A DNA stretch of 39,007 nt from a virus, in IMG/VR virus record IMGVR_UViG_3300020472_002467, positions 1 through 39,007 of that record. The stretch is one strand, 5' to 3'. Positions 11,399-36,567 of the stretch are shown here, in pieces. Positions within the stretch are counted from its first letter, which is position 1. Every line of letters starts with the position of its first letter. The notes under the pieces were generated by a model. That model was not told where the DNA came from, ran no database searches, and saw only the letters and a program-made list of their open reading frames with translations. Made by a program: the position numbers and the translations under genes.

Positions 11399-13701
11399 TG
11401 GCAACTAATGCAGACTTATTAAAAGCGATTCAAGACTCTGCGACAGCAGGTGCACAAGCAGAATTAGATTCACAAGTTGAATTTCTAAAAGATGGTGTAG
11501 ACGCAGCTAGAAGAGCTTTGGAGCGTGAAAAAAGTAATTTACCTAGACAGTATTGCGAAGGCGCACAGGGTACAATACTCTCTCATCCCGATAAAGAAAG
11601 TTGTGAAGCTGCTAGTGGGGTATGGCAAGATAGAAGAAATGCTGGCGAAAAATTAAAAGATAAATACGAAAAGACTAGAGATGCTTTACCTAATTATTTG
11701 GATAGAGCTACGGAGAAGATGCGTAATGCCGCAAAGACTATAACAGACAACAGTAATCCTAGAAATAAAACTGCAAGAAAAACATCTTATATAGATATAA
11801 ATTATGGAGTATTTAGAACTGCATGTATGGATGGAGATGAAAGTATAGTATTTGAGAACTATGATGCTGCTCTTAATAGATTAAGATTACCAACTAAACT
11901 TTGGGGAGGTAAGAAGTTTAAGAGAACGCCCGAAGACGTTAACTATACTGAAGATGCAAATATGTTTATGGGTCCTACAAAAGTTAGTGTTCAACGAGCT
12001 ATCACTTCAGATATGCCAGAGCCTAATGATCCTAAGGATCAAGTTGCAGCGTTTACTATGGCTATTAAAAGTATGAGTTGGTCTAATGTTGATCCGACTA
12101 AACCGACTACTGGGCATTTAACTGTTGAGTTTTATACAATACCAGGAGCTGGATCTGTCTTTCCAAATGCAGACTTTAGTGCTCATATTCCTCTAAACTT
12201 AACTGATGATAAGTATGATAATCAGACTATTCAGTTTGGAAGGTATGTAAATACTGGAGCTTCCTCTGTAGATTTTATGAGCTCTTTTCACCAAGCTTGG
12301 AGACATGATACTGTTAACAGATTACAAGCTGATGGAATTAACTTGACTGCTAAAATCATTGATGTAGCAAATGAAGAGATTCTTTCTCGTGAATTCTTTT
12401 GTTGTATTTTCTTTGAGATTATAGCAGCTAGTCCTGAATTAAAAGAAGTAATTGGTGATGATCCTGGATTAGATCCTAGTGATTTAGGTAGGTTAAAAAT
12501 ACTTGCATTAGAAAAGAAAATAAAAAAAATTAAGAAAAATGAGGACTGGGAAAGTGATCCAATACTAGTAGCACGAGTAAATGCACATGAAGAAAAGATA
12601 GTTTATTACGAAGAACACGGATATAGTGTTCAGGACTTTTTGAATGAGCAAAAAGGATGGATGTTAAAACTTAAAAATATTTTAGAAATTATAGCTGGGT
12701 TACTAACTACTCAAACTTTTCAATTTGGATTTCCTGCACTAGCTATCAATATATTAGAAATTTTGATTAATAGTGTATACGCTGTTTTAATGATTATATT
12801 AGAAGAAGTACAAAAACATGTATTAGCTGAATGTTATGAATGGGTAGCTAAACAAAAAGCAGAAAAGGAAGAAAAAGTTAAAGAGACTTTAGAAACTGAA
12901 GGTGTTTGTGTAGATGCAGAAGAACATGGAAGTAGAACCTCTTGTCAAGAAGCAGGCTTTGTATGGGAACCAGGTGCAACTTGGGAAACTGCTGCAATAA
13001 ACTGTTTACCTTGGGAGCAGATACTAATTGTTGTGATTGATTCCTTATTCGGTAATGATGGTTTATTTAAACATCTTAAAGGATTTGTAGATAGAGTAAA
13101 AGCTGATATGCTATTAAAAACTAAACAGCTTGAGACAGAGTCTATGGATATTAACGAAGCATTAGAAAATAATAAATATCTAAAGTATCTATTACAATCC
13201 ATAGATATTTTAGATTGGTTGTTATCTCTAAATGCTGAAGCATTACAGTTTTGTGATATGTATAGTAGAAACTTATCTATGTTAGGTCCTGACGCATATA
13301 AGAAAACAGTAGAAGATGGATTAAGTGGCGGCCCTAATACAGGAGGTCAAAGCATAGAGGTAGGTGGTAATCAGGATAATCTAATTGGAAATCCTGATAT
13401 TCTACAAGGAAATGTGCCTGGAGCAGGGGGAAATCTCTCAGCAAGCGGTAGAATGGCTTCAGATTATCATTCGTCTTCAAAGATTGACATAACTGGTAAT
13501 ATAGTCAACCCATTAGGTTTATTACTTTATCAGACTGATGAGGATATAAAGAAGTTTTTTACTCAATATATGGGGCTTACACCAGCAGAAGCTGAAGAAG
13601 CAGTGACTGGAGAAAAAAGGGGACAATGTATGAAAAAATTATCTGAGGATGAAGCCCAGCAATTAAAACAAATTCTTAATAATTCGAGGATGGAGGTATA
13701 A
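11398..13701 (+). CDS. Large virion protein with two Cys-Cys-Trp modules, 767 aa
   Basis: The protein lies between terminase and portal. The N-terminal 120 residues form charged helices. A soluble beta-rich part (about 130-310) follows, then a coiled-coil segment (365-410), a hydrophobic helical block (about 428-470, possibly membrane-associated) and another helical Lys/Glu segment. The last 130 residues are Gly/Asn-rich. Two copies of the recurrent Cys...Cys-x3/4-Gly-x1/2-Trp motif occur at 53-76 and 504-523. No enzyme motif is seen. Position suggests a portal-associated, neck or ejected protein. No family is recognised. Confidence 0.6.
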   Translation: MATNADLLKAIQDSATAGAQAELDSQVEFLKDGVDAARRALEREKSNLPRQYCEGAQGTILSHPDKESCEAASGVWQDRRNAGEKLKDKYEKTRDALPNYLDRATEKMRNAAKTITDNSNPRNKTARKTSYIDINYGVFRTACMDGDESIVFENYDAALNRLRLPTKLWGGKKFKRTPEDVNYTEDANMFMGPTKVSVQRAITSDMPEPNDPKDQVAAFTMAIKSMSWSNVDPTKPTTGHLTVEFYTIPGAGSVFPNADFSAHIPLNLTDDKYDNQTIQFGRYVNTGASSVDFMSSFHQAWRHDTVNRLQADGINLTAKIIDVANEEILSREFFCCIFFEIIAASPELKEVIGDDPGLDPSDLGRLKILALEKKIKKIKKNEDWESDPILVARVNAHEEKIVYYEEHGYSVQDFLNEQKGWMLKLKNILEIIAGLLTTQTFQFGFPALAINILEILINSVYAVLMIILEEVQKHVLAECYEWVAKQKAEKEEKVKETLETEGVCVDAEEHGSRTSCQEAGFVWEPGATWETAAINCLPWEQILIVVIDSLFGNDGLFKHLKGFVDRVKADMLLKTKQLETESMDINEALENNKYLKYLLQSIDILDWLLSLNAEALQFCDMYSRNLSMLGPDAYKKTVEDGLSGGPNTGGQSIEVGGNQDNLIGNPDILQGNVPGAGGNLSASGRMASDYHSSSKIDITGNIVNPLGLLLYQTDEDIKKFFTQYMGLTPAEAEEAVTGEKRGQCMKKLSEDEAQQLKQILNNSRMEV
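11554..11625 (+). repeat. Cys-Cys-Trp module, copy 1
   Basis: Encodes residues 53-76 of the 767-residue protein: Cys53, Cys69 and Trp76, with six residues between the second Cys and Trp (CEAASGVW). Confidence 0.6.
12907..12966 (+). repeat. Cys-Cys-Trp module, copy 2
   Basis: Encodes residues 504-523 of the same protein: Cys504, Cys516, Gly520 and Trp523 (CQEAGFVW). It sits directly after a Lys/Glu coiled-coil segment. Confidence 0.65.
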
Positions 13702-15449
13702 TGGCGGAGCAAAAAAGATCTATTTTAAATCCTTTTACTTGGTTTGGAGGTAACTCTGAGTCACTAGAAGATAGAATAGAAAATATAATCAATAAAAGAA
13801 ACACTACAGTTTCTACTAAACAAGGTCCTAATTTTGTAAAAGATGCTAAATCATTTAGTGTTGCAAACATTTTAAAAACTCTTAAGTCAAAAGTTCTGTC
13901 TGCGATTGATGGAGGCATGAGAGGTGCTTTCACTAAACCAGAGTGGGATTTTAAAAAAATACATTTAGCTTTTAGTAATGAATCTATATTTAGACGTTCG
14001 GTAGAAAAATATGTAGAACAAATAAGAAAGCATGAGTGGGAATTTGTAGGTAATAATCCAACTACAGTTCAATATGTTAGAAGAAGATTTGATCAGATGG
14101 CTACAGTAACTAATAAACCAACCTCTGAGCTTTTTGATGAAATAGCATTTAACTTGGTATTATATAGTAACGCATTAGTAGCTAAACAACGAAACAGAAA
14201 AGCATCGGGAGGAAAGCCTAGAACAACTTTTGATGGGTATAGTAGAGTTCCGGTTGCTGGTTACTTTTGTGTAGATCCATCGACTCTAGAAGTAGATAGA
14301 GATGAGTATGGTAATGTACGTAAATGGAAACAGTTAAGAGAGGATACATCACTACCTCGATTCTTTACTAAAGAATTACAGAATAATGATAGTGAAGTAG
14401 AATGGCCTCATTATAATATGATACACATTAAAGATAAGGGCGCTTCTCCCTCTAACTATTTTTTCGCAATGCCTATGGCTGTTCCTGTGATAGCTGACAT
14501 GCAAGCGTTAAGAGAGCTTGAAGAACTTTTATTATTAGAATCTATTAAAGTAGCGGTTCCTAAATTGCATGCTAAAGTTGGCAGTAAGGAACAACCTGGA
14601 ACACAAGAGCAAGTTGATGATCTAGCTTCTACTATTAGAAATCTAACAGGCGACGGGGTAATGATAACTACAGAAAGAGTTACCATTGAAGATGTAGCTA
14701 AGGCAACCAGTGCAAATAACATATTAACTGCTGCTATGACTTACTTTAGAGCAAGAGTATTAGCGGGATTAGGAATGTCTGATGTAGCTATGGGAGCGGG
14801 AGATACTGCTAATAGAGCAACAGCTCAAGTAATGAGCTCAGAAATTCAAAGTACATCAGCAAAATTTCAAAGAATATTAAAGAAGGCGATAGAGTTTCAT
14901 ATTGTTAGAGAACTTTTATATGAAGCAGGTTATACAGAATTTACATTGGATCAAGAGAATATGGTTACTTTATCTATACCAGAAGTAGCTTTACAAGAAA
15001 AGATCACAAGAGAAGCTCATCATTTAAATTTATATTTATCTAATGGAATAACTCATTCTGAGTTAAGAAAAGAATTAGGTAAAGATTTACTAGAAGGAAT
15101 ACAAGAAGAGGATATGTATCTTAATAGGGTATCTATTCCATTAGCAGAAGCAGGAGCTGTTTCAGATACTCCCCAACAGAATGCTTCTAGTAATACAAGT
15201 AGACCTTCTAATCAACATGGTACTCAACTAGCAAAACCTAAAGTTTCAAAAGATTCATACCATAAATTATGGAATAATTGCCTAAAAGTCAGGACGAAGA
15301 AGGCATTACTGGAAACTCTGTCACAATCTGACTTAGACCCGTATGACATAACTATACTGCAGGTAATGATATCTAACTATTTGAATACCTACAACTTAAA
15401 AGACACAGTGAAGTTTGTTTTCACAGCATTAGAGGATAAGCTTACTTAA
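13701..15449 (+). CDS. Portal protein
   Basis: The 582-residue protein has the usual portal order: a basic N-terminal segment, then the wing and clip region with IYR-like helices, and the long stem helix (MQALRELEELLLLESIKV, about 270-290). Next is the ERVTIEDVAKATSANNILTA region leading to the ARVLAGLGMSDVAMG turn, and a helical crown. This turn and the following ANRATAQVMSSE are typical of myovirus portals, where the segment precedes the helical barrel. Twelve copies would form the DNA channel at one capsid vertex and dock the terminase. Its position next to terminase, protease and scaffold agrees. Confidence 0.9.
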   Translation: MAEQKRSILNPFTWFGGNSESLEDRIENIINKRNTTVSTKQGPNFVKDAKSFSVANILKTLKSKVLSAIDGGMRGAFTKPEWDFKKIHLAFSNESIFRRSVEKYVEQIRKHEWEFVGNNPTTVQYVRRRFDQMATVTNKPTSELFDEIAFNLVLYSNALVAKQRNRKASGGKPRTTFDGYSRVPVAGYFCVDPSTLEVDRDEYGNVRKWKQLREDTSLPRFFTKELQNNDSEVEWPHYNMIHIKDKGASPSNYFFAMPMAVPVIADMQALRELEELLLLESIKVAVPKLHAKVGSKEQPGTQEQVDDLASTIRNLTGDGVMITTERVTIEDVAKATSANNILTAAMTYFRARVLAGLGMSDVAMGAGDTANRATAQVMSSEIQSTSAKFQRILKKAIEFHIVRELLYEAGYTEFTLDQENMVTLSIPEVALQEKITREAHHLNLYLSNGITHSELRKELGKDLLEGIQEEDMYLNRVSIPLAEAGAVSDTPQQNASSNTSRPSNQHGTQLAKPKVSKDSYHKLWNNCLKVRTKKALLETLSQSDLDPYDITILQVMISNYLNTYNLKDTVKFVFTALEDKLT

Positions 15450-15461
15450 GTGGGAGTATCA

Positions 15462-15809
15462 ATGGATAAAAAAGAATATACAGAATTTAGATGTCCTTCT
15501 TGTGGCTCTTTACTTTGCAAGTATTTTGATAGAGAAAATCCTTATGCAGTAGAGATTAAATGCCAGAAAAGAGGATGTGGTTCAGTAGCAATAAGAGCTA
15601 ACTGTGTACCAACGAAGTTAGTAGAATTAAGGTGTGATCACGTTGATGAAAAGAAATCAGAAAAATGGGGAGCACCAACTATTTGTAATAAATTATTAGC
15701 AAAACTGATACCTGGAACAGATATTGAAATTAAATGCCCTAGATGCAAAAAAATAACTTATAGCTTAGATCAATTTCCAGAGTTATTATCGGAGGATACT
15801 TATGAGTAA
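15462..15809 (+). CDS. Double Com-like zinc-ribbon protein
   Basis: Two successive zinc-ribbon units are visible: FRCPSCGSLLCKYF with VEIKCQKRGCG, and CDHV...ICNKLLAKL with IEIKCPRCKKITY. The second is very close in pattern to phage Mu Com (CxxCNKLLxK...IEIKCPRCK), a small zinc protein that binds mRNA and activates translation of mom. I chose the ATG at 15462 because GGGAG lies 5-9 bases upstream of it; the GTG at 15450 overlaps that site. A binding or translational-control role is plausible, but no mom-like target is in this window. Confidence 0.7.
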   Translation: MDKKEYTEFRCPSCGSLLCKYFDRENPYAVEIKCQKRGCGSVAIRANCVPTKLVELRCDHVDEKKSEKWGAPTICNKLLAKLIPGTDIEIKCPRCKKITYSLDQFPELLSEDTYE

Positions 15810-17148
15810 ATTATTAGCTTCATTTTCGGATGAGCAAGTCAGTAATGCAACTGACAATCACTTAGTAGTGAATCAATCAGGAAATGAAAAGCCGGATTCT
15901 ATAATCATTACTATAGACGCTACCCACGCTGGGTACAAAAACAAAAATTTCTTTTATTATGATCCACAATCTATGAAGTACGCAGTACAGCAAGACACGT
16001 GGACAAAACCTTTTGCCAAACCATTACTTAAGAATCATGACCTTGAATCCGAACCTTTAGGTAGAGTTCAAGCAGCAAGATACATCGATACGATGGATGG
16101 CAAAGGGTACACTCAACTGGATGTTAAAGTAACAGACAGTGAGGCTATTGATAAAATTTTAGACGGTAGATATTTAACCGTGTCAACTCACGGTGCTCCT
16201 ATGAAGGACGCCGATTTAAGGCACAACTTTGTGCAGTGTTCCGTATGTGGAACAAACTTAAACCAGGATGAATGGTGCGGCCACAGTAGAGGTCAAATGT
16301 ATGAAGATGAAGATACTGGAAGAGAAATGGTATGCTTCTGGAAAGTAGGAGCTATGGATTACAAAGAAGTATCTATAGTTAATAATCCTGCTGATAATGA
16401 TGGTTCTACTGCTGCCCAAATAACAGCTGTTTCGATGATCGATGGAGAAAATCCGGCGATGGGAACAGACGAAGAAAATAAAAATTCAAATTTTTTAATT
16501 TTTAAAGATTCAGATGTAGAATATGCAGATGAATCTTTTTTAAATTTAGAAGATCAAAAATCAGTCGTAGCTAATATAGCTTTATGGGATTCTGTTGGGC
16601 AAGATGCTGAGAAGTATGTAGCCAGTAAGGGTCTTATACTTAGCGCTAACAAACCTTTTAAAGGCGATATAGTTGGCATAGCTGGCGATGCAGATGGTGA
16701 TCTACTTGCTGAAGATGATTCTAAAGCAGGCTATCCACCTAACTGTAATGCTGGATATAAAGTTGCAACTGTAGAAGGTGAGAAGAAATGCGTTTCTAGT
16801 AAAGGTAAAACTTCTTCCAAGAAATCTTATGATGCTGAAGCATTATTAGAGGATATTCTAAATATAAAAACATCAGAAACTGATGCGAATACTAAATCTG
16901 TAGAGAAAAAGTCTAATTCGTCAGAAGACTCTGAAGACACAACTGCCATTAACGATAAAGAGTACGATCATGATTTAACAATATCAGATGACGCTATGGA
17001 AGAGTTATTAGATAAAGGTGAATCATATGTAGAAGTAAGCTCTGGTTCTCAAAAAATGACCATATGGGTTAAATACGATGGATCAAAGTTTAGTGCTGAT
17101 TCGGAAGAGCAGATTCAAACATTAAGAAAGATGTTTGAATTAGTATAG
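15802..17148 (+). CDS. Prohead protease with zinc insert and long C-terminal extension
   Basis: Residues 30-200 match the prohead protease fold. LLKNHDLESEPLGR (His79) holds the catalytic His with the GR strand after it. LTVSTHG (Ser128) is the nucleophile strand, and DYKEVSIVNNPAD (186-198) is the classic C-terminal signature. Between them, Cys146, Cys149, Cys159 and His161 (CSVCG...WCGHSRG) form a likely zinc site. Residues 210-448 are acidic and low in complexity, possibly a scaffold-like delivery tail that the protease trims. The enzyme should cleave scaffold and capsid N-termini during maturation. The start overlaps the zinc-ribbon gene by 8 bases. Confidence 0.85.
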   Translation: MSKLLASFSDEQVSNATDNHLVVNQSGNEKPDSIIITIDATHAGYKNKNFFYYDPQSMKYAVQQDTWTKPFAKPLLKNHDLESEPLGRVQAARYIDTMDGKGYTQLDVKVTDSEAIDKILDGRYLTVSTHGAPMKDADLRHNFVQCSVCGTNLNQDEWCGHSRGQMYEDEDTGREMVCFWKVGAMDYKEVSIVNNPADNDGSTAAQITAVSMIDGENPAMGTDEENKNSNFLIFKDSDVEYADESFLNLEDQKSVVANIALWDSVGQDAEKYVASKGLILSANKPFKGDIVGIAGDADGDLLAEDDSKAGYPPNCNAGYKVATVEGEKKCVSSKGKTSSKKSYDAEALLEDILNIKTSETDANTKSVEKKSNSSEDSEDTTAINDKEYDHDLTISDDAMEELLDKGESYVEVSSGSQKMTIWVKYDGSKFSADSEEQIQTLRKMFELV

Positions 17149-17184
17149 ATTGACATAACTACAGACAAATAGGAACGTATAATT

Positions 17185-17946: not shown

Positions 17947-17948
17947 AA

Positions 17949-18971
17949 ATGGCTAAGATTAATTTTACAGCAGGTGGAACAACAAGAAAACTTAAAGCAA
18001 CTCCTGCTAAATATAGACAGTCTCCCGGTAGACCTAATATCTCACAATCAGACGGGGTAAGACCTGCATTTCCATTAATGCCTTGGAAAGGTATGAATGG
18101 TGCTGGTTATGAAGATGTATCTACTGGAGATCAAGTTGTAATACCAAAAGGCCGAATTGTTTCTGCTATCACTGCAAATGGTGGTGCGGATGTAATAGGC
18201 GATGGTTCTACTTATTATGGTGTAGGCAAAGGCGTTATGGGATTAATAGTTCCAGCTAACGGTGGAGCTACAAGAGACGTTGCAGCAGAGTATAATGAAG
18301 CTGGTTGCTTAGCAGCTGGTTTAGTATGGTCGGGTGGCGACTGTGCTACACTTACTCTAGATGCAAACTCACCTATCGGTGTTGTTGAACATGACGTTTT
18401 CATGGACGAAGCTGATGGCGCATTAAACTACCAAAGTAGAAACAAAAACTGGGGAGTTCTTTCTCACCAGTTAATTAAAGTTCCTTACGTAGATGTAACA
18501 GCATGGAATGGTAAAACTGGATTAACAGACGACGTTGTCGATGATCCTGATTCAATGGGTACTGAAGGTGCAGTTTATAAAGCACTTGAGAAAAAATACT
18601 CATTCATGGTAAGCTCAGGTAAATCTGGTAAAGGTTTAGCTGGCGCTTTAGTAGCTGCTGACAACTATGGAAACTATGCAGAAGTAACTTCTGTAACAGC
18701 ACAAAATGTAGGTAAACTAATGGGTGTTGATTATAGATTCAATAAGGACTTACTAGACACAGTTCAATCTAAGTGGGAAGACGACGCAGCATATAGAACT
18801 GCAGGTACCGGTACTAAAGGTATACCTCAATTCTTATATGATTTCGTTTACGATGCATTAGTAGCAGATTCTGGTTATACAGTTGACGCAGCTACTGTAG
18901 GTAACGATATATACACAATGTGTGTAACTGACAAGATCTTCGGTGAAGCTTGGATTTTAATTAACGTATAA
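17949..18971 (+). CDS. Shell-associated (decoration-like) protein, paralog A
   Basis: The 340-residue protein shares its N-terminus (MAKINFT...TPAKYR), an IPKGRIVSAIT strand, a VEHDV segment, a NKNWGVLS...QLIK segment and a C-terminal LLDTVQSKWEDDA block with the next gene, so the two arose by duplication. It lacks the 464-residue copy's central insertion but has a short segment with Cys120, Trp127 and Cys132. Beta-rich, Gly-rich character and position just before the capsid gene suggest a capsid decoration or minor shell protein. No named family is recognised. Confidence 0.65.
   Translation: MAKINFTAGGTTRKLKATPAKYRQSPGRPNISQSDGVRPAFPLMPWKGMNGAGYEDVSTGDQVVIPKGRIVSAITANGGADVIGDGSTYYGVGKGVMGLIVPANGGATRDVAAEYNEAGCLAAGLVWSGGDCATLTLDANSPIGVVEHDVFMDEADGALNYQSRNKNWGVLSHQLIKVPYVDVTAWNGKTGLTDDVVDDPDSMGTEGAVYKALEKKYSFMVSSGKSGKGLAGALVAADNYGNYAEVTSVTAQNVGKLMGVDYRFNKDLLDTVQSKWEDDAAYRTAGTGTKGIPQFLYDFVYDALVADSGYTVDAATVGNDIYTMCVTDKIFGEAWILINV
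18306..18344 (+). repeat. Cys-Trp-Cys variant of the module
   Basis: Encodes residues 120-132 (CLAAGLVWSGGDC) of paralog A. The Cys-x3-Gly-x2-Trp core is intact, but the partner Cys comes after the Trp. Paralog B has no equivalent segment here. Confidence 0.55.
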
Positions 18972-18991
18972 ACTAAGAGGAGAAAAGTAAA

Positions 18992-20386
18992 ATGGCAAAG
19001 ATTAATTTTACAAATAATGCAGGCCCTAGTACTTCTAGGAAAATGCAATCGACTCCTGCTAAGTACAGAGAGTCAAAAGGTAGACCTAATATTAGTCAAT
19101 CTGATGGTATTAGACCTGCTTTTCCATTAATGCCGTTCGCTCACTTGCCTGTTAGTTTTACAGATGTTACTACTACAGATGCTGTAGTAATACCTAAAGG
19201 TAGAATTGTATCTGCTATCACATCTAACGGCGGTGTTAATACCGGCGGTGATATGGATGGTTCTACTTATTATGGTGTAGGCAAAGGAATAATGGGACTT
19301 ATGGTACCAGCTAACGGTAATGCTGCTAGAACAGTAGTATCACCAGTTGATGCCGCTGATAAAATTATTTCAGCTAACGCACCTATAGGTATTGTAGAGC
19401 ATGATGTCTATCAAGATATCAATGGTGACAACTTGAACTATGATATGAGAAATAAGAACTGGGGAGTTCTTTCACAACAGTTAATCAAAATACCTGCAGT
19501 AGACACTTTTGAATTTGATAAATTCACAGGTGAAGTATCTGGTTTCTTACCAGTTAGCGCTACAGGTACTGACGGTGGACAAGAAAATGTAGCAGGTTCA
19601 GTTGCGGCTGAAACTGTAGCATTTAATGCTGCTGCTGGATCAACTGCAGCATTCAGTCCTGCAACTGGTTATTTAGCCGGTAGTTTTGCTATCGTTTCTA
19701 TAACAGTTGATGGATTTATTCAAGACGCAGGCGTTATTGCTGCTTCTACAATGAATGATACCGGTGATATTGATATCGTTGGTGCTGAAGGTTGTTCAGA
19801 CGCTGCTGGTACAACAGAAGCTATCTGTACAGACGCAGATGGTGTAAATGGTACTTGGGCTGCTTTAACAGGCAATCCAGTTAACAGAACTGTTTCAGCT
19901 ACATACACATATGACTTTGATAACGCAGGAACTGGTGCTCCAGCTGTTGCTTTAACTGGTTCTATGGGTTATACTGAATGTGAAAAGAAATACTCATTCT
20001 TAACTTATAATAGTGAGGCTGGTGAAGGATTGGCAGGAATGCCAGTTGCACCAGATTTTTACGGCAATTTCAAAGAAGGCGCGTCTACTAAAGACGCTCA
20101 GACTGTAGGACTTCTAATGGGTGTTGATTACCGTTTCGGTAAAGACATGTTAGATACAGTTCAGTCTAAGTGGGAAGACGATGCTGAATTTGCTACTGCT
20201 GGAACAAGAACAAAAGGTTTACCTCAGTTCTTGTATGATTTCGCTTACGCAGCTTTAAACGGCTACGTATTGAAAAAAACCAGTACCTGGGATGCTGTAT
20301 GGCCAGGTAAGGATGCTGCTGTTGTAATCAAAGATGCCGTGGACGCTGGTGTTTTTGGTGAGGCATGGATCCAAGTAAACGTCTAG
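18992..20386 (+). CDS. Shell-associated (decoration-like) protein, paralog B
   Basis: The 464-residue duplicate of the preceding gene shares the N-terminus, central strands and C-terminal VQSKWEDDA...GLPQFLYDF block. It is longer because of an Ala/Gly/Thr-rich insertion (about 185-325) that includes a Cys-Cys-Trp module at 268-289. It starts 20 bases after its paralog with AAGAGGAG upstream. The role is probably the same: a shell-surface protein, perhaps with the inserted domain exposed outward. Codon use is somewhat richer in C-ending codons than in the early genes of the window, as expected for an abundant virion protein. Confidence 0.65.
   Translation: MAKINFTNNAGPSTSRKMQSTPAKYRESKGRPNISQSDGIRPAFPLMPFAHLPVSFTDVTTTDAVVIPKGRIVSAITSNGGVNTGGDMDGSTYYGVGKGIMGLMVPANGNAARTVVSPVDAADKIISANAPIGIVEHDVYQDINGDNLNYDMRNKNWGVLSQQLIKIPAVDTFEFDKFTGEVSGFLPVSATGTDGGQENVAGSVAAETVAFNAAAGSTAAFSPATGYLAGSFAIVSITVDGFIQDAGVIAASTMNDTGDIDIVGAEGCSDAAGTTEAICTDADGVNGTWAALTGNPVNRTVSATYTYDFDNAGTGAPAVALTGSMGYTECEKKYSFLTYNSEAGEGLAGMPVAPDFYGNFKEGASTKDAQTVGLLMGVDYRFGKDMLDTVQSKWEDDAEFATAGTRTKGLPQFLYDFAYAALNGYVLKKTSTWDAVWPGKDAAVVIKDAVDAGVFGEAWIQVNV
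19793..19858 (+). repeat. Cys-Cys-Trp module, long-spaced variant
   Basis: Encodes residues 268-289 of paralog B: Cys268, Cys279 and Trp289. Nine residues separate the second Cys and Trp instead of the usual six. It lies within the insertion that paralog A lacks. Confidence 0.5.
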
Positions 20387-27759: not shown

Positions 27760-27793
27760 AAGAACCCTGTCAATGATGGGGTTCTTTTATTTT
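27760..27793 (+). terminator. Rho-independent terminator after the tail sheath
   Basis: Stem AAGAACCC / GGGTTCTT with an 11-base loop, followed by TTTTATTTT. An ATG at 27773 lies inside the loop, so it is unlikely to be used to start the tube gene. Confidence 0.8.
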
Positions 27794-27805
27794 GGAGAAA
27801 TTGAC

Positions 27806-28399
27806 ATGTCATTTAAATCAAACGTTGATACAAACCCAGGATTAGTTACTACTTTTGCTGGATCAGATATAAAAACGGTGTTTGGTAACGTAGAGATCGG
27901 CAATCTTCAAGGTATTTCATGGTCCATAAACAGAGAGGTTCGTCCTATATTTGTTTGTGGTGATCCTAACGCATTAGCTTATTCTAAGAATAAGCGTGGT
28001 GTAGCTGGATCAATTGTTATGACTTGCTTTGATAGAGCCGCACTCCGTGATATAATGGAGCTTTCTTCAGTACATCGTACTGATCAAAGTTTTGTTCCCG
28101 GCGTAACTCAGACAGCAAATGGGACGGGAAGTCCTTTTGGTGAAGATACTAGGGTAGCTATATACTCTGATGAAATTCCACCATTCGATATTACTTTATA
28201 TGGTAAGAACGAATTTGGAAAACAAATGGTTATGAGAATTTTTGACGTAACTATTATATCAGAAGGTGCTGGTATCTCTATTGATGATGGTATTCAAGAG
28301 GCTCAATTCACTTATGTTGCAAGACATATTGATGATTGGAGATCTGTTGAAGGACCTGCAGGTGCTGCTGAGAATAGCATTGTTACTACAATCACTTAA
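27806..28399 (+). CDS. Tail tube protein
   Basis: I start it at 27806 (MSFKSNVDT), because GGAG sits 10-13 bases upstream and the earlier ATG falls in the terminator. The 197 residues follow a tube-fold order: a loop with GISWSINREVRPIFV (the ring loop), a GVAGSIVMTCFDRAAL strand pair, a PPFDITLYGKNEFG strand and a C-terminal FTYVARHIDDW strand. It lies right after the sheath, as in other myoviruses. Related domains occur in three further proteins downstream, so this one is the likely main tube subunit. Confidence 0.82.
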   Translation: MSFKSNVDTNPGLVTTFAGSDIKTVFGNVEIGNLQGISWSINREVRPIFVCGDPNALAYSKNKRGVAGSIVMTCFDRAALRDIMELSSVHRTDQSFVPGVTQTANGTGSPFGEDTRVAIYSDEIPPFDITLYGKNEFGKQMVMRIFDVTIISEGAGISIDDGIQEAQFTYVARHIDDWRSVEGPAGAAENSIVTTIT

Positions 28400-28442: not shown

Positions 28443-28460
28443 AGCACTTATGGAGTATAG

Positions 28461-31400
28461 ATGGCTAATCCTAATGAAATTATAGATCCGCAAACGCAAG
28501 AGAACTTAAAGAATCAGCAGGCTGAAGCTGATGAAAGAGCGAGTAAGAATTTCAATGTCGGTGGAGGTGGTGCAGCTGGTGAATTAGATACTGGCACATT
28601 TGGACAGACATATACCCCTGCTCCTCCTAATACAAATATTGCTTATTCAGGATCTGACTGTAAAGCTTTTATAGTTACTTATGGACAAGTAGCTAAAGAC
28701 TCCTTCATCCCACTTAAAAATTTATCTGCAATCAGTTATTCTATTCACCGAGATAAAGCACCTGTACGTAGTCTAGGACATTATGTAGCCACGGATTATA
28801 CTAAGGGTACTAGAACAGTAGCAGGAAGTATTGTTATTGTTAATTTTGATAGAGCTGCTTTCTTTGAATTAGTTAGTGGAGTAGATATTTATGGTGCTGC
28901 AGGAAAGAATATAGAAGTAGCAGATAACATTCCAGCTTTTGATATTATGCTGGCTTTCTCAGAGGAAAATAAGGGAAGGCATAGTTCACTGTGGACTAAT
29001 GGAGCAATAGGACCACCTAAGCCGGATAAGGCTGCAGACTTTTCATATATGTGGATTCGTAATGTACATTTTGTAGATGAAGGATCAGTAACAGGTACAG
29101 AGGAAGCTTACCTGGAAACTACTTTTCAATACGTAGCGGAACATGTGGAATACTTAACACCTAATAATGTGAATATTGGAACCTCACCTGTAGCAAATAT
29201 TGCTAGTACAGTTGGAGGAAGTCCAAGTACTACGCCCTATACACGAGCTCTGCCTCATAGGCACTATGAAGATCAGAGAGATGAATTAGCTAATTGGGAT
29301 ACTGGACAAAAGCAAATGGATTTGGTGTTTGATAGAGATGAGGTTGGGCAATTTAATGCTAGCTTTGATTATAGTATATCCTCAGAGTCTAACGCAGACG
29401 CTATTAAAACTGCTGGATCGGATCCCCACGAATGGGTAAGACCAGATACTAATTTAATATTTGTGGATGCTGATGTACCTACACATCTATTAGGAGCAAT
29501 GTCCTCTATTAATGACTTAACAGTGACAGGGACGCCTCAAGGAACAGGAGCTGAACATGTTAATATAGAATTTGAAAGCTTCCATCCAGATGCAGATATA
29601 ACTAATAATAATATTATTCATATTACTAATGCACATTTATTTCATGACTATGATAGGAATTGCTGGCAAAAATTATGGGGCCTAGAAAAGCCTCCTGTGT
29701 TTGGAAATAAATTTCAGAATGATCTACATAATGTTGCAAAGGCCAAATATGAAGAATTTGAAGAAACTCTAGTATATGATGGAGCGGTTATGACTCCTGG
29801 TGTCGTTGATTTTACTCTAACTGGAGAAGTTGATAATGGTGCTATTGTAGGTTTTTCTAATGACGTAGATGATCATTTTAAAGCAATTAGTTCTGTAAAA
29901 GAGCATTCAGTTGTTTTAAGTGCGGGTTTAAATCCTGGTGATCCCGGCATAGCCTCAGTAACTATTGATGAAGCTGATGTGCAAGAGACTCTAACTGAAA
30001 CGTTTGAAATAGACTTAGAGCCACTTATAGATCAATACACTATCTCTAGGTCCTATATTAATAACGGGTTTGATAGAATAGATGTAGATGTTTGGATTAA
30101 CCAAACTGATCTGCAACCATCCTCTTTAGGTACTGGTGCTGCAATGATGCCTAATAGAGCAGATTTAGAAGATCTTCAAGGATCAACAACAGGACCAGAT
30201 ATCAATCAATTACAATTTAAATGGTTTGAATTTTACTCTACCCCGCAAGTAGCGCCTGATCATTGTGATAATGCAGGATACGCTGATGCGGTCACATGTG
30301 GCGCAGCAGGAGCAGCGTGGGTAACTGGAGCACAAACCACTGGTAAGTTTACTATATCAGTACCTCCAACACCGTTAATAGATAAACAAGTATCATCAAC
30401 TAGATCAGGACCAGGTATACTTGGAGCTAATAAACAATTTCAAGCAGATAAAACAACAGCAGGAGAAGACGTAATTGCAACCTCCTTAGTTACAAGTGGT
30501 CCGTCCGTAAATAGAGATCAAGTAGTACTACAAGTAGATTCTCCTACTGGAATGGACCTATCTGGCTTTTTTACTTTAAGTAAACATGAGGATGTTGTAG
30601 ACTCGGAAGGAGTACTCGTCTCTACTGATATTGAAATATCAGGATATGCTCAGGCTATTCCTGGAAGTGATTTACACCTTGTACCTCCTACGTCAGTGAC
30701 AACAGAGTATACACAAAATATTGGTACATACACTTATACATCAACATCTGACATACAGGACTTTGCTTTTGTTCCTCCTGCAGACACTCATCAAATCTCT
30801 AGTTTTGATCAACTAGATTGGGACTGGACAGATACTACATATTTCCATACTGATTTATTACCCAATATAGGTTATAGCCATAATCATCAAGTGGGTTCAA
30901 ATAACTTTCAAATTAGTGGAGCCAGACAATGGACATATAAATCAGTTACAAAACAGCTTAGTGGGTTCACTAGCCAGTTTGCAGTATTAACAGATACCGT
31001 TCCTCTAGTGTCTTTCTATCAAGATAAATATCAGTTTAAATCACAAGGACAAAACAACAGTGTATATGTTAGAATTAAAACACAAGATGGAATTGATGTA
31101 GCACAAGGTTTAATGCCTATAAGTTGGGATGCCAGCGGCGCTGTAGTAAATTTAAGTTCGTTTGGAGTTCCTAGTACTGGTGGTATTTTTACTATAACTG
31201 ATTTTAATACTGCTCCATGGCAGTCATATCAAGCATACTCAGTTGAAATACAATATGAATATAAGTATGTTGGAGATATACCTATAGGTATTCAATATAC
31301 TGCTGTAGATCCTACTCCGTTGTCGGTTACAGCAACTTTAGATAATAATGGAGCAGATACTGCTAGTGCTAGAGTTATAGATGAGAGTAGTATAGAAGTC

Positions 31401-33500
31401 ATTGTTGTTCAATCAGATGGTACGAGTAATACTAGCTTTACTACAGTTTTTGACGCAGATACTAATCAGTTAACTATTAATGACTTGAATTCCCACTTAA
31501 TATCTGATATTAGAATAGACTACCTATTTGAGTATATAGGGCTATTCCCGACTACTGTCCACTACTTTAGTTTTGCAGATAATTCATTTGCTGACACGGT
31601 AATACTTGATCTAGGGCAAGATGAGCCTATAAACTTTAATAAGGAGCAAGATGTGTCACTATCTTGCGCAGATTCTTCAGCCCAGATAGAACCTACCCCT
31701 TTTGGGATAGTGATAGGAGATCCTATTTTAAATACCACAACTAACAATTGGGAAGTCACGGTGTCAGAGATACCTGGAATGGTAATACATGATTCACATG
31801 ATGGATGGCTTGCTTCGTTATGGAATGGAATCTTTGGTGATCCTGGGATGCCAGAAGGAAACATTCTTATTAATATTAATTATAAAGTTTGGGATAGTAC
31901 TACAGCGGATCAACAAGTTCAAATTACATATGATGGATTAAAGGATAATCAGACTGGAACATGGGCATCTCACGATCAAGTAGCGGGTACTGCTCCATTA
32001 AATGGATTCACTGTAAGTAAAACTTATGAAGCAGATAAATATGAAAAAATTCAAATAATTAACCCAGGCTTATATACTGAAACACAAGGTACGTGTGATT
32101 GTAGTAATGCGCCAGATCCAAATGCATGTCCACCTGCTAGCCCTCCTCAGAATAGTTTTGATTGTGCAGCTGGAGGCGGTATTTGGGTAGCTGGATCAGG
32201 ACCTCCTGCGCATACTCCGCATGATGTAACTGGCTATCAACAGAATGTTACCCATGCTATGAACATAACAGAAATTACAGATTACGGTAATTTAAGTAGC
32301 CCTCCAACTGTAAGTTTTAATGTTGATGGAGTGTTAGGTATTATACCTGCTAAGAATATTTTAGATACAGGTTATTTTGCAGGTAACTATAAAGTTACTT
32401 TTGATTTAACATATGATGTACAAACTGGAGAACTTCCAATTGTATTTACTTACTTAAGAAAAACAGGAGATACATACCCAGCAATAGACAGCACGGTTAA
32501 CTTTGGATTTGAAGCTAGTGTACCTATCTTTACACATGATCCTACAGCTAATTTAGATGTTACGTTGGATATTATAGAAAAGGTTTACTTCTGTGGAAAT
32601 GATGGGGCTCTACCTGCAGAAGATTGTAGAAATGCTCCAGTAGATCCAGCTCCAGTAGAAGTTGAGGCTATTGTTCCGGTACACGATACGAACGGAGAAG
32701 CTTGCACAACAATTGATCCTAATGATCCTACTAAAAATACTCCTTCAGGCTGTAATCCAAATTATGGAGCAATTATTGGTCCGGATACTTTAAATGTTTC
32801 GAACCCATTACAAGCATATACACTACTAAAAGATCCTAATACGACGAGTGGATCCCCGTTTACTATCGAGTTTCCAACCGGTATTAATCCTCTTCCTGAC
32901 GCTCAAGGAGTACATCAGCCCCTAAACAAGGCTGCTGCTCCCACTTATAAAATAGATGTAGATTATAAAAAACTTGTATCTTATAATCCTCCTAGTGTGT
33001 ATGATACTCCTGGTTATCTTTTAACCGCAATATTAAATGTTACTAATTTTGATACATTTAAATTAGTTTTAGATATAGATAATAATAGCTTAAATTACTA
33101 TAGAGGATTAGGGGTATGTGAAGACACTCAGTACACTGTTATAGATGAGTGTATAGAAAATGATTTAGTTTGGACTGAAGATCCTAGTGAGGATATTGCA
33201 CTATGTGAAGCAGTAGGAGGAACATATGTAATGGAATCTCCTTTATTAGAAGATGAAATCATACAAGGTATATTAAAGCCAGCGGGTGTTTGCCAGTTAA
33301 GTACTAATTCAATAGACAGTTTGATAGCTGATCAAAAATTTGTACAGTTCAGCTTTATGCTTGTAGGACCAGGAACTACGGGACAAACTGATAGCGGTAA
33401 AAACATTTATAAGATATTTGAGTCATCAGAAAATTTTAATACTTTGGATAAGGCTGTAGAGGCCATGCAGCGACAATATGAAGAAGAGTTCGGAAAATAG
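28461..33500 (+). CDS. Giant tube-domain tail protein, 1679 aa
   Basis: Residues 55-235 repeat the tube layout of the gene just before: SAISYSIHRDKAPV, AGSIVIVNFDRAAFF, IPAFDIMLAFSEENKG and ETTFQYVAEHVEY. Residues 240-1679 are beta-rich, with at least three loosely repeated units ending in a Y.y.YvG..P..i.Y pattern (near 933, 1022 and 1318) and Gly/Thr/Pro linkers. Three Cys-Cys-Trp modules and one related Cys pair lie in this part. The fold plan suggests a tube-initiator, hub or decorated tube protein with surface domains for host binding or tail stabilisation. GGAG lies upstream of the ATG. Confidence 0.7.
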   Translation: MANPNEIIDPQTQENLKNQQAEADERASKNFNVGGGGAAGELDTGTFGQTYTPAPPNTNIAYSGSDCKAFIVTYGQVAKDSFIPLKNLSAISYSIHRDKAPVRSLGHYVATDYTKGTRTVAGSIVIVNFDRAAFFELVSGVDIYGAAGKNIEVADNIPAFDIMLAFSEENKGRHSSLWTNGAIGPPKPDKAADFSYMWIRNVHFVDEGSVTGTEEAYLETTFQYVAEHVEYLTPNNVNIGTSPVANIASTVGGSPSTTPYTRALPHRHYEDQRDELANWDTGQKQMDLVFDRDEVGQFNASFDYSISSESNADAIKTAGSDPHEWVRPDTNLIFVDADVPTHLLGAMSSINDLTVTGTPQGTGAEHVNIEFESFHPDADITNNNIIHITNAHLFHDYDRNCWQKLWGLEKPPVFGNKFQNDLHNVAKAKYEEFEETLVYDGAVMTPGVVDFTLTGEVDNGAIVGFSNDVDDHFKAISSVKEHSVVLSAGLNPGDPGIASVTIDEADVQETLTETFEIDLEPLIDQYTISRSYINNGFDRIDVDVWINQTDLQPSSLGTGAAMMPNRADLEDLQGSTTGPDINQLQFKWFEFYSTPQVAPDHCDNAGYADAVTCGAAGAAWVTGAQTTGKFTISVPPTPLIDKQVSSTRSGPGILGANKQFQADKTTAGEDVIATSLVTSGPSVNRDQVVLQVDSPTGMDLSGFFTLSKHEDVVDSEGVLVSTDIEISGYAQAIPGSDLHLVPPTSVTTEYTQNIGTYTYTSTSDIQDFAFVPPADTHQISSFDQLDWDWTDTTYFHTDLLPNIGYSHNHQVGSNNFQISGARQWTYKSVTKQLSGFTSQFAVLTDTVPLVSFYQDKYQFKSQGQNNSVYVRIKTQDGIDVAQGLMPISWDASGAVVNLSSFGVPSTGGIFTITDFNTAPWQSYQAYSVEIQYEYKYVGDIPIGIQYTAVDPTPLSVTATLDNNGADTASARVIDESSIEVIVVQSDGTSNTSFTTVFDADTNQLTINDLNSHLISDIRIDYLFEYIGLFPTTVHYFSFADNSFADTVILDLGQDEPINFNKEQDVSLSCADSSAQIEPTPFGIVIGDPILNTTTNNWEVTVSEIPGMVIHDSHDGWLASLWNGIFGDPGMPEGNILININYKVWDSTTADQQVQITYDGLKDNQTGTWASHDQVAGTAPLNGFTVSKTYEADKYEKIQIINPGLYTETQGTCDCSNAPDPNACPPASPPQNSFDCAAGGGIWVAGSGPPAHTPHDVTGYQQNVTHAMNITEITDYGNLSSPPTVSFNVDGVLGIIPAKNILDTGYFAGNYKVTFDLTYDVQTGELPIVFTYLRKTGDTYPAIDSTVNFGFEASVPIFTHDPTANLDVTLDIIEKVYFCGNDGALPAEDCRNAPVDPAPVEVEAIVPVHDTNGEACTTIDPNDPTKNTPSGCNPNYGAIIGPDTLNVSNPLQAYTLLKDPNTTSGSPFTIEFPTGINPLPDAQGVHQPLNKAAAPTYKIDVDYKKLVSYNPPSVYDTPGYLLTAILNVTNFDTFKLVLDIDNNSLNYYRGLGVCEDTQYTVIDECIENDLVWTEDPSEDIALCEAVGGTYVMESPLLEDEIIQGILKPAGVCQLSTNSIDSLIADQKFVQFSFMLVGPGTTGQTDSGKNIYKIFESSENFNTLDKAVEAMQRQYEEEFGK
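30264..30320 (+). repeat. Cys-Cys-Trp module, copy in the giant protein
   Basis: Encodes residues 602-620: Cys602, Cys613, Gly617 and Trp620 (CGAAGAAW). The flanking sequence is Ala/Gly-rich. Confidence 0.65.
32163..32186 (+). repeat. Cys-x6-Trp half-module preceded by a Cys cluster
   Basis: Encodes residues 1235-1242 (CAAGGGIW) of the giant protein. Additional Cys at 1212, 1214 and 1223 precede it (32094-32129). A Cys pair at 1378/1389 (32592-32627) has the usual spacing but lacks the Trp. Confidence 0.5.
33117..33227 (+). repeat. Tandem Cys-Cys-Trp module near the end of the giant protein
   Basis: Encodes Cys1553, Cys1564 and Trp1571, then Cys1582, Gly1586 and Tyr1589 (CEAVGGTY). This is a second core that keeps the spacing with Tyr in place of Trp. 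Confidence 0.6.
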
Positions 33501-33738
33501 TAAACCTATAGATATTATACATGGAGGCGATGGGCTTCCGGATTGGATGCAGTTTACTATTACTTTAAGTATGTTTGGGATGCTCTTATGGGTTCTTTAC
33601 CTACTCTTTCATCCCACCCTGTCACTAGATGAAAAGCATAGAGACTTATTAAATATTTTATTAGGAACCTTTATAGCTTCATTTGGAAAGGTTATAGATT
33701 TTTGGTTTAGACATTCTAAAAAAAAGGACAATAGATAA
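33478..33738 (+). CDS. Small membrane protein, holin-like
   Basis: The 86-residue protein has two hydrophobic helices (about 25-45 and 58-76). The second contains GTFIASFGKVIDFWF, recalling the 'G...A.f..vi.yWFG.S' end of small phage holins, and a basic tail (RHSKKKDNR) follows. A holin would pore the inner membrane for lysis, though lysis genes are usually not in the middle of a tail operon and no endolysin is near. It starts 23 bases inside the giant gene and has no strong ribosome site, so translation may be coupled. Confidence 0.55.
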   Translation: MKKSSENSKPIDIIHGGDGLPDWMQFTITLSMFGMLLWVLYLLFHPTLSLDEKHRDLLNILLGTFIASFGKVIDFWFRHSKKKDNR

Positions 33739-34584
33739 ATGAAAAACATGTATGAATATAGTAAAGTAGTAAAAGCAATGAGAGATTTTTTTCAAGGGGA
33801 AAAAGGCTTTATAGAAGTTCCTGCACAAAGTAGGCAATCTATACTAGCCGCATGTGAAGATCCAGCAACAGTTTCACAATATATATTTAGTGGAGTAAAC
33901 TGGCCCTTACCTCAAACTGGCCAAATGTGGCTTGAAAGAGACCTACTTGAAAATCCGAATGTTAAAGGCGTATTCTGTGTAACAACTAGTTATAGGAATG
34001 AACCTAATCCCGTTGAAGGACGTCATGATAAAATATTTCCAATGTTTGAGTTTGAATCACATGGGGATATGGAAGATATGATAAAATTAGAAACAGAATT
34101 ATTAAATCATTTAGGGTTTAATAATGCAAACACCAAAGATGATTATGCTCGTATAACATATGATGATGCTTCGGATAAGTATGGCGTATCAGAGTTAGAC
34201 TATGCCGAAGAAGAAGCTCTATGTAAGGACTTCGATCCTTGCACATTTCTCACTGATTTTCCATTAAGAACACATCCATTTTGGAATATGATGCATGCAG
34301 GTGATGGTATTTATAATAAAGTAGATGTTATAATGCATGGAATGGAAACTATTGGTTCTGCTGAAAGAGCGGTAGATGTACAAGAGATGAGAGATCAGTT
34401 TCACAATATATCTGATGGAGAATATGCTAATTTACTTTATAATCATTTTGGAAAGAAAAGAGTTGAAGATGAATTAGAAGAATACTTAGCTTTAGATATG
34501 TTTAAAAGATTTGGTGGCGGTATTGGGGTAACTAGAATGGTTGCTGCAATGAAAGCTGCTGGTCTTTTATTGGAGAAGGTTTAA
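33739..34584 (+). CDS. AsnRS/AspRS-like class II synthetase catalytic domain, or AsnA-like asparagine synthetase
   Basis: The 281-residue protein shows the class II synthetase core of the Asp/Asn/Lys subgroup. A motif 1-like helix-strand lies near 8-30. LPQTGQMWLE (57-66) stands for the 'SPQ' loop. Motif 2 is SYRNEP (84-89) with RHDKIFPMFEFE (95-106). FLTDFPLRTHPFW at 170-182 is the substrate strand. GMETIGSAER (201-210) stands for 'G.EI..GsqR', and motif 3 is GGGIGVTRMV (259-268). There is no N-terminal anticodon-binding domain, so charging of tRNA is unlikely to work as in AspRS. Archaeal asparagine synthetase-related enzymes and tRNA- or protein-modifying paralogs have this truncated form. 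Its place inside the tail operon is unusual. Confidence 0.8.
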   Translation: MKNMYEYSKVVKAMRDFFQGEKGFIEVPAQSRQSILAACEDPATVSQYIFSGVNWPLPQTGQMWLERDLLENPNVKGVFCVTTSYRNEPNPVEGRHDKIFPMFEFESHGDMEDMIKLETELLNHLGFNNANTKDDYARITYDDASDKYGVSELDYAEEEALCKDFDPCTFLTDFPLRTHPFWNMMHAGDGIYNKVDVIMHGMETIGSAERAVDVQEMRDQFHNISDGEYANLLYNHFGKKRVEDELEEYLALDMFKRFGGGIGVTRMVAAMKAAGLLLEKV

Positions 34585-35177
34585 TGAAAAACTTATTAAT
34601 AGCATTATTAGTAAGTTTAGGATTGTCAACTGAGTGGGGTTCTTCTATAAGTGTAAGGACCCCCAATGACGATTCGAAACCATTAGATTATGAACTCTCT
34701 ATTAAGTTTGAAGATAACGAAGATAAGTTTAAATATCTTATCAAACGAGATTGGGAAAGAGAGTTAGGGGAAAACTATATTGATGATGTAATTAAAATAC
34801 AACATCAAGTCCTTGGACACTTGTATTATGGTATAGATTATGTAGATAAGGAATCAAAACATATAAAATATACAACATATAACATAGGTGCTACAATTGG
34901 ATGGTTTAAAGCAGGGGTTGCTTTTAAAGATTCTGAAGACAAGCTAGAACCCTTATTAAATTTAGCTCTAGCTACTAAGCTTAAAAAGGATGATTTAGAA
35001 TATGCTGTATCTGTTTCAGCTAAGTCTGATATAACAGAGACTCACATATTTAATTTAAAAAGTGAAGTAAAAAAATGGATAACTAAAAAGGTTAATATCT
35101 TTGGGATATATAAACATGAATATTATAATGATCAAGAAGACTTTCAATTTAAAATAGGAGTTGGGGTAAAACTATAA
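34584..35177 (+). CDS. Exported beta-strand-rich outer-membrane-like protein
   Basis: A signal-peptide-like start (MKNLLIALLVSLGLS) precedes a mature part with alternating polar/hydrophobic residues and repeated Tyr, Lys and Asp in turn-rich strands (YELSIKFEDN, TYNIGATIGWFKAGVAFKD, FQFKIGVGVKL). This is the look of a small beta-barrel, although the last residue is Leu rather than the usual Phe. If exported, it could alter the host outer membrane, for example to block superinfection. It is framed by TAATG overlaps with the genes on both sides. The function is not known. Confidence 0.55.
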   Translation: MKNLLIALLVSLGLSTEWGSSISVRTPNDDSKPLDYELSIKFEDNEDKFKYLIKRDWERELGENYIDDVIKIQHQVLGHLYYGIDYVDKESKHIKYTTYNIGATIGWFKAGVAFKDSEDKLEPLLNLALATKLKKDDLEYAVSVSAKSDITETHIFNLKSEVKKWITKKVNIFGIYKHEYYNDQEDFQFKIGVGVKL

Positions 35178-35710
35178 TGTATTTTAACGGTACCAATGCA
35201 AACTTATATATAGACGGGCGATATGTTGCACATGCGGTGACTTTTGAGTTTAACGAGTCTATACAAAAATTACCTATATATGGGTATAAGTCTGTTGTTT
35301 GGGATACTGTTTTAAAGGGTAATAAAGTTGTTAATGGTGGCTTTTCTGTAAATTTAGAAACTGATCATAATATAGAGGAGTATTTAACTTCAGCTCTTAA
35401 TGATACATTAGGTACTCCTGATTTAAAAGGTAGAGCTGACTTCTCAAGAGATTTTTTTGATATCAAAATAATGTATATGAAACCTGAATTTGAAAAGACC
35501 TTATCTAAAGCTAATACAGGTACTAGTAGTTATGTTAACGATCCTTATTTTAAAAATATGCTTAAGGATGGAGAATATGAATACACTGCGGCCGTAGGTA
35601 TTATAACAGTAAAACATGCATCTTTGTCCCGAGTACAGCAATCTATAGTATCGGATGCAACTCCGATAATAGAATTTTATGAGTTTACAGCTAAGGACGT
35701 AGAATACTAA
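35177..35710 (+). CDS. Tube-fold tail protein, 177 aa
   Basis: Short FNGTNANLYIDGRYVAHAV start, then EFNESIQKLPIYGYKSVVWDTVLKG, GGFSVN and a C-terminal PIIEFYEFTAKDV strand. The 'ipIyGY.......G...v.G.f.vn' arrangement is common in phage tail tube and tube-initiator proteins. It is paired with the next gene, which starts with the same FxGTN style. Lying between the giant gene and the chaperone-like genes, it may be a tail-tip or tube-initiator component. Both ends overlap neighbours by TAATG. Confidence 0.6.
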   Translation: MYFNGTNANLYIDGRYVAHAVTFEFNESIQKLPIYGYKSVVWDTVLKGNKVVNGGFSVNLETDHNIEEYLTSALNDTLGTPDLKGRADFSRDFFDIKIMYMKPEFEKTLSKANTGTSSYVNDPYFKNMLKDGEYEYTAAVGIITVKHASLSRVQQSIVSDATPIIEFYEFTAKDVEY

Positions 35711-36567
35711 TGTTTTTTTCTGGAACAAATTTATTAGTAAAGTTACATGGGGGTCCTTATGCCTATCCTAAGGTAACAAGTACCTTTAGATTTCCTGTAA
35801 GTAAATTACAAGTAATTATTGAAAAAGGGGAATTAAGATATATGACTTCAGATGGAGCAGGAGTTCATACTAATCCAGTAGGATTTTGCTTTGATACTAC
35901 TGCCAAGACTTATACAAATCTCTATGAAACAGAATCTACTTGTGTAGAGCAAGGATTTAAGTGGCAACCATATGTATCTATTACTTCCGTCACAGATATT
36001 GCTGCAGTGCATTTAAATAATGTACATTTATCAGAAGCTTTAAGTCAAATGCTTGACTACTATAAAGAACATAATGTAAATAGACAGGATTATATGGCTC
36101 TAGCTGAGTGGGTACTAGATGTTAAAGACCAAGCATCTATAAATAAAACTTGGAGACCTGACGTAGGAAACGCAACAGGAGAAATTCTAGATGCTGTAGC
36201 TATTCAGTTTAGTTCTGAGCAGGCTTCTTCTCCTATTTATAATCCAGGAAGTATGCTCATGGATACCCAGATGAGAGGAAATACTATGGTCAATGGAACG
36301 GTATCTATTAACTATAAGTCAGAATGGAATAAAGATTTATTAGGATTTAACTCTGGATCTGTAATGGATTTAGAAATAATATATAACAGAGATGAGTTTG
36401 AATTAGATGAGTCTGTAACTGGAGCTCAGTACGATTATGAGTCAGACGCTTTTTCATACAAAATTCACGATATAGAATTTATAGGAAGAAGCCACGCTAC
36501 TAATCCTAGTCCAGAAAATATAGTAGAAAATTATCAATTTATAGGTAAATACCTCACATCAAAATAA
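35710..36567 (+). CDS. Tube-fold tail protein with inserted Cys-Cys-Trp module, 285 aa
   Basis: It starts with MFFSGTNLLVKL like its neighbour. After about 50 residues it has an insertion with Cys60, Cys78 and Trp85 (FCFDTTAKT ... STCVEQGFKW), followed by a helical segment (ALSQMLDYYKEH). The tube-fold strands then resume: SSPIYNPGSMLMDTQMRGNTMVNGTVSIN, the 'PIY...G..mvnG..siN' pattern shared with the 177-residue neighbour. It ends in IVENYQFIGKYL. Probably a paralog used at another tail position. Confidence 0.6.
   Translation: MFFSGTNLLVKLHGGPYAYPKVTSTFRFPVSKLQVIIEKGELRYMTSDGAGVHTNPVGFCFDTTAKTYTNLYETESTCVEQGFKWQPYVSITSVTDIAAVHLNNVHLSEALSQMLDYYKEHNVNRQDYMALAEWVLDVKDQASINKTWRPDVGNATGEILDAVAIQFSSEQASSPIYNPGSMLMDTQMRGNTMVNGTVSINYKSEWNKDLLGFNSGSVMDLEIIYNRDEFELDESVTGAQYDYESDAFSYKIHDIEFIGRSHATNPSPENIVENYQFIGKYLTSK
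35887..35964 (+). repeat. Cys-Cys-Trp module in a tube-fold protein
   Basis: Encodes residues 60-85: Cys60, Cys78, Gly82 and Trp85 (CVEQGFKW). The Cys pair is more widely spaced (17 residues) than in most copies. The shorter neighbour at 35177 lacks it. Confidence 0.65.

Follow-up and report, generated by a model that had tools for sequence, protein, structure and literature searches.

The window examined here, a stretch of 39,007 bases from a virus record, is part of the genome of a large contractile-tailed phage and raises the question of why one small pattern of cysteine, glycine and tryptophan recurs in several of its virion proteins. The initial annotation had described the pattern as Cys...Cys-x3-Gly-x2-Trp and proposed a compact, disulfide-knotted or metal-binding module serving head and tail as a host-contact or assembly tag. 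The major head protein shares 26-31% identity with Moorella phage MTATph1, Bacillus phage KLEB27-3 and Acinetobacter phage ME3, and a tail sheath gene is also present in the window. A 68 kb contig (G001) represents a relative of the window phage with 73-75% identity.

The Cys/Cys/Trp frame in the window

Inspection of the proteins proved every motif position listed in the initial annotation to be correct (Table 1). Its formula holds as a Cys/Cys/x6/Trp frame, whereas the strict form C-x3-G-x2-W is found in only three of the five main copies. What holds reliably is C-x(10-17)-C-x6-W, mostly with Gly at position +4 of the second Cys; Gly is at +5 in copy 1 of the 767-aa protein and absent from the copy at residue 1553 of the 1679-aa giant. 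Two copies have longer Cys-Cys loops of 15 and 17 residues, respectively, and two are incomplete, namely the one at giant residue 1582 and that of the 340-aa protein, which reads C120-x3-G-x2-W127 and has its second Cys (C132) downstream.

Table 1. Copies of the Cys/Cys/Trp unit and its variants in the window; the profile from which the i-E values of copies 3, 4 and 5 derive itself includes these copies.
Feature	Protein (gene)	Residues	Window position	Strand	Key residues
Module copy 1	767-aa (11398-13701)	53-76	11554..11625	+	C53/C69/W76
Module copy 2	767-aa	504-523	12907..12966	+	C504/C516/W523
Half-module	340-aa (17949-18971)	120-132	18306..18344	+	CLAAGLVWSGGDC
Variant module	464-aa (18992-20386)	268-289	19793..19858	+	CSDAAGTTEAICTDADGVNGTW; C268-x10-C279-x9-W289
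Module copy 3	1679-aa (28461-33500)	602-620	30264..30320	+	C602/C613/W620; profile i-E 6.5e-8
Variant copy with extra Cys	1679-aa	1212-1242	32094..32186	+	C1214 or C1223 / C1235 / W1242
Module copy 4	1679-aa	1553-1571	33117..33173	+	C1553/C1564/W1571; profile i-E 1.4e-10
Half-module	1679-aa	1582-1589, downstream Cys1611	33204..33293	+	C1582...Y1589, Tyr replaces Trp
Module copy 5	285-aa (35710-36567)	60-85	35887..35964	+	C60/C78/W85; profile i-E 5e-10

The motif is real and occurs far above chance. When all 41 window proteins were shuffled 2000 times, the seven observed occurrences of C-x6-W (1.06 expected) were reached in none of the shuffles; C-x3-G-x2-W was seen five times as compared to 0.07 per shuffled set, and C-x(8-20)-C-x6-W seven times as compared to 0.20. 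A tightly matched control was provided by scanning IMG/VR with the DNA pattern for C-x-D-x2-Y-T-...-C-...-G-...-W at three spacings one residue apart, which matched 2, 82 and 0 contigs at 9, 10 and 11 residues, respectively. A scan of genome contigs with a pattern one residue too short returned 21 matches versus about 30 by our estimate of chance, and seven genomes among these gave no profile match.

The host genes had been described as not otherwise alike. BLAST indeed detected no mutual similarity among the 767-aa protein, the giant, the 285-aa protein and the 340/464-aa proteins, but the description fails within three paralogous pairs. The 340-aa and 464-aa proteins are 58% identical over 196 aa, the 285-aa protein pairs with the adjoining 177-aa protein, and the N-terminus of the giant (residues 56-230) is a paralogue of a 208-aa protein (27773-28399), to which it is 27% identical. 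The same region of the giant, a tail-tube-like domain followed by about 1450 extra residues, also matches a tail tube protein of KLEB27-3. No relatives of the 285-aa protein were found among the viral contigs searched, and the only relative of the giant among viral contigs was again G001.

All five full copies are present at the same places in G001, and a 3056-aa protein of this contig, located past the window's end, carries further copies. In the five orthologous pairs all 15 Cys/Cys/Trp frame positions are kept, whereas identity over the rest of the module is 44% as compared to 69-76% for the whole proteins. However, the two phages share nearly all Cys and Trp residues of these proteins, so that the frame result alone cannot single out the modules. 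A fixed frame with a fast-drifting interior would be expected of a structural clasp whose exposed face tolerates change. The G001 orthologue has a near-canonical module (CSDTQFTNENECLCGTGGVW) at the site of the giant's 1212-1242 variant and the same pattern at the 1582 half-module.

Occurrence beyond the window phage and predicted fold

A profile built from module copies (HMM A2) was searched against the PDB, as the initial annotation had suggested, and matched gp8 of phage T4 (1n7z, E 7e-7) and of phage KP1 (9f4a, E 7e-4), a result that is not fully independent because three gp8 sequences of other phages are in the alignment; no other PDB sequence appeared up to E 10. A two-module consensus, composed by hand before gp8 had come up as a match, likewise retrieved gp8 of several T4-like phages (E 0.4-10), together with a Vibrio-phage baseplate protein (E 4e-4) and the J protein of Colwellia phage 9A. 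In T4 gp8, the unit reads C142-x10-C153-x3-G-x2-W160 and lies within residues 137-164; T4 gp10 contains C331-x10-C342-x3-G-x2-W349 with a weak profile score (i-E 0.15). The window copies fit the module seen in these two proteins, namely the C-x10-C-x6-W frame in which the second Cys has a helix N-cap four residues before it and Gly at +4.

The baseplate wedge protein gp8 (PF09215; 1N7Z) thus contains the unit itself but is otherwise unrelated to the window proteins, and the literature examined does not treat the 137-164 stretch as a portable unit. The Pfam model of gp10 domain 3 (PF22670) gives weak matches to seven of 19 module sequences (best E 0.0096); gp10 of Vibrio phage VH7D does without the unit, which is therefore an insert in gp10 and not the domain itself. 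Pfam, PHROGs and NCBIfam hold no curated family for the module, with only the gp8 and gp10 models responding, and the module-bearing window proteins have no Pfam match, including none to Phage-Gp8 (PF09215). A literature search limited to open-licence papers revealed no description of the unit; an earlier one may exist elsewhere.

In the IMG/VR stretches fetched, the profile gave 141 matches in 112 open frames falling into 30 protein clusters, and among the 80 stretches listed, 20 carry modules in two or more proteins, while single isolated modules are common among the matches. PHROG assignments, where any, are overwhelmingly to virion parts: minor tail protein L, J fibre, head-tail adaptors including Ad2, head closure proteins Hc2 and Hc3, baseplate wedge proteins and tail protein phrog_10775. 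The hosts include gp13-, gp14-, gp6-, L- and J-like proteins, as well as one amidase-type protein (phrog_5107), and about ten of the 30 clusters have no family match. The unit of about 19-25 residues has the consensus C-S-D-x2-Y-T-x4-C-x2-A-G-x-T-W. Gly is present in 64 of 73 distinct x10 copies and an N-cap S/T/D/N in 84% of them, figures that lean high since the search required Cys and Trp and the main DNA pattern fixed D, Y, T and G. One stretch (L065) has units in tandem with a 23-residue period, which indicates that the unit is self-contained. In addition, three stretches (L103, L112, L054) encode very large proteins with long Cys-rich arrays of degenerate modules, with or without Trp.

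In bacteria the module is rare, with matches in 4 of 398 Pseudomonadota, 0 of 395 Bacteroidota and 0 of 289 Verrucomicrobiota genomes. Two of the four are TadG-like proteins with a PF13400 domain, which should probably be exported to an oxidising compartment where disulfides can form. The third has similar genes close by, but its own frame seems to have degenerated, and the fourth is a large protein without Pfam match. The two TadG-like genes (L130 904-2259 and L131 895-2349, both on the minus strand) have their units in alike surroundings within the protein, with phasin-like and ClpS-like genes, named by eye, nearby. A tag particular to this virion is not supported, as the same unit occurs in T4 gp8 and gp10, about 30 protein clusters and occasional bacterial TadG-like proteins.

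For prediction of the fold, a 35-residue window sequence from the giant's 1553 copy was modelled with AlphaFold2 together with 57 aligned modules. The model has a strand at 7-9 (first Cys), a helix at 17-22 (second Cys) and a strand at 27-29 (Trp), with a core pLDDT of about 90. Foldseek retrieved nine PDB chains, all with weak E-values, which reflects the tiny size of the unit; the argument rests on rmsd and on the identity of the proteins retrieved. Eight of the chains align at 3-4 A, whereas the ninth, KP1 gp8 (9f4a), aligns at 1.2 A over 23 columns (E 4.1); as Foldseek scoring takes in sequence besides shape, this is partly the same evidence as the sequence match. Among viral models, baseplate wedge proteins were matched at 0.8-1.8 A (named matches under 2 A: Aeromonas phage Ah1 and Escherichia phage R5505), and the Colwellia 9A tail protein was also retrieved. 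VIA-align of the 35-residue model, a query very short for this method, gave no Z of 2 or more. The full-length 767-aa model is poor (mean pLDDT 41) and unsuitable for a fold search, yet both copies still appear as strand-helix-strand between long helices; copy 1 comprises E51-54, H66-71 and E75-78 between two of these, with a local pLDDT of about 63-71. A window copy is thus predicted to adopt the strand-helix-strand fold present in solved gp8.

Gain and loss in homologous proteins

In the 767-aa family, whose outer members share 30% identity, copy 1 is present in four of four members and persists in relatives that are 75% and 30% identical. Copy 2 was found in L001 but is cleanly missing from the L067 and L118 homologues. 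In these two, copy 1 is followed about 25 residues later by another module, one missing from the window protein, and L118 alone carries a third one. Similar differences are seen between the window paralogues. The 340-aa and 464-aa proteins have their modules at different sites: the half-module of the former sits in an insert of about 15 residues that the 464-aa protein lacks, and the variant module of the latter, conserved in L001, lies in a region missing from the 340-aa protein. Copy 5 of the 285-aa protein belongs to a stretch of roughly 140 residues that the 177-aa paralogue lacks.

The same holds for T4-like and other phages. The gp10 proteins of T4, Acj9, MP1, VP8, Aeromonas 31.2 and Margaery have the module, whereas that of VH7D does not; this patchy presence agrees with the remark that Cys555 is the sole gp10 cysteine conserved across all T4-like phages (PMC3004832). 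The gp14-like protein of L086 contains two modules and T4 gp14 none; a gp13-like protein has a module that is absent in T4 and X1. In tail protein phrog_10775, one module lies within an insert of about 45 residues that is absent in Pelagibacter phages HTVC104P and HTVC115P. The gp8 module, in contrast, is kept in eight of eight T4-like phages compared. The profile detected no convincing module among the structural genes (45 and 48 kb) of the distant relatives MTATph1 and KLEB27-3.

We also considered recent copying between proteins of one genome. Modules in different families on one contig are 29% identical (22 pairs) as compared to 37% between contigs; same-contig modules are thus no more alike, which gives no indication that units were recently copied within the genome.

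Nature and role of the unit

The profile, indel and structure tests agree with the initial view of a compact Cys-clasped unit common to head and tail proteins, with likeness at the protein level only. The pattern is more widespread than the initial annotation had assumed, and the interpretation given there is correct in part. The unit has the appearance of a small building block clasped by a disulfide, not of a product of chance or a tag of one phage, and we are fairly confident that it is a portable beta-alpha-beta micro-domain, probably held by a disulfide, that sits in loops of unrelated virion proteins. The first Cys would be on a short strand, from which a loop leads into one or two helix turns with the second Cys; the N-cap S/T/D/N four residues before this Cys would start the helix and Gly would terminate it, and Trp would be on a second short strand running back beside the first. 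Given the two flanking strands, the points at which the chain goes in and comes out are probably almost adjacent, which would allow the unit to go into a loop or helical turn without disturbing the folded protein. With exactly two Cys at fixed spacing and no other conserved ligand, the two most likely form a disulfide, perhaps only once the particle reaches an oxidising environment. The cytoplasm in which phages assemble is reducing, and hence the bond would have to form late. The unit would then serve as a rigid, protease-resistant clasp or boss on the virion surface, with a tolerant exposed face that drifts fast.

A structural role, that is a clasped boss or spacer fitting any loop, is the most economical one, and we rank host contact, a redox lock and metal binding below it. 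In surface adhesion, a variable face would bind glycans or envelope components, with head and tail copies raising avidity. The fast drift of the interior within a fixed frame and the fibre or baseplate nature of several hosts would fit this role; however, the unit is also present in gp13- and gp14-like neck or head-closure proteins, which are poor sites for receptor binding, and its retention in gp8 of all eight T4-like phages, whose hosts differ, also speaks against it. We therefore regard adhesion as unlikely.

A redox switch or lock, in which a bond made in the free virion has to be broken at infection, has been proposed for Agrobacterium phage Milano (PMC10811340), and disulfides holding a phage tail until contraction provide a precedent. 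Milano virion proteins contain many Cys and disulfides, and the lock is built on interchain bonds in that phage's own proteins (PMC10811340), whereas here a conserved Cys pair lies within one small unit across unrelated proteins of many phages. Moreover, the clean loss of modules from homologues suggests that function is independent of them, making a lock improbable.

That the Cys/Trp pairs arose by chance or convergence in phage proteins under loose constraint is less credible still. The motif is short and some window copies are degenerate, but the shuffle test, the 2/82/0 spacing control, the conservation of copy 1 down to 30% identity and the module-free structural regions of the two distant relatives refute chance for the full copies, although the 340-aa half-module could still be due to it. 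Least credible is metal binding, which had been offered initially, in the form of a knuckle, e.g. for zinc: although two spaced Cys could act as ligands and two units could share one metal, no third or fourth conserved ligand was found in the 73 distinct x10 copies and isolated modules are common. A zinc knuckle or zinc finger was rejected, as it needs four ligands and each unit has only two conserved candidates.

Returning to the portable micro-domain, we lean, by a small margin, towards an unnamed unit shared widely among virions (T4-like baseplates, necks, lambda-like J and L proteins, heads and tails of large environmental phages), spread by loop gain and loss as a structural add-on and sporadic in probably exported bacterial proteins. 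Ig-like accessory domains are likewise portable in unrelated phage structural proteins and are gained and lost without clear requirement. The unit behaves comparably, yet on the modelled fold it would not belong to that family, whose members are beta-sandwiches of 80-100 residues, whereas the unit has about 20, is Cys-clasped, resides in loops and is predicted to be beta-alpha-beta. Short Cys-bearing inserts are abundant and unexplained in phage structural proteins, and one named unit would explain part of them. It would also offer domain-database curators a new model and a small loop-compatible scaffold. Since T4 carries two copies in proteins of known structure, gp8 and gp10, the role of the unit is testable there.

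Apart from the module, several other features of the window were noted. Genes read by eye as GroES-like, ClpP-like, small transporter-like and asparagine-ligase-like are located at 1138-1437, 4036-4635, 4625-4969 and 33739-34584, respectively. The large terminase (779-aa; 9059-11398) contains an intein at about residues 143-315 (Pfam Intein_splicing, E 1.7e-9), the end of which, ...AHNS, was read by eye; the G001 terminase has an intein as well. A G001 stretch (L005 2-2563) shows an intein-like C-terminal junction, ...AVHNS, followed by nuclease-like sequence, and by eye may represent a second intein.
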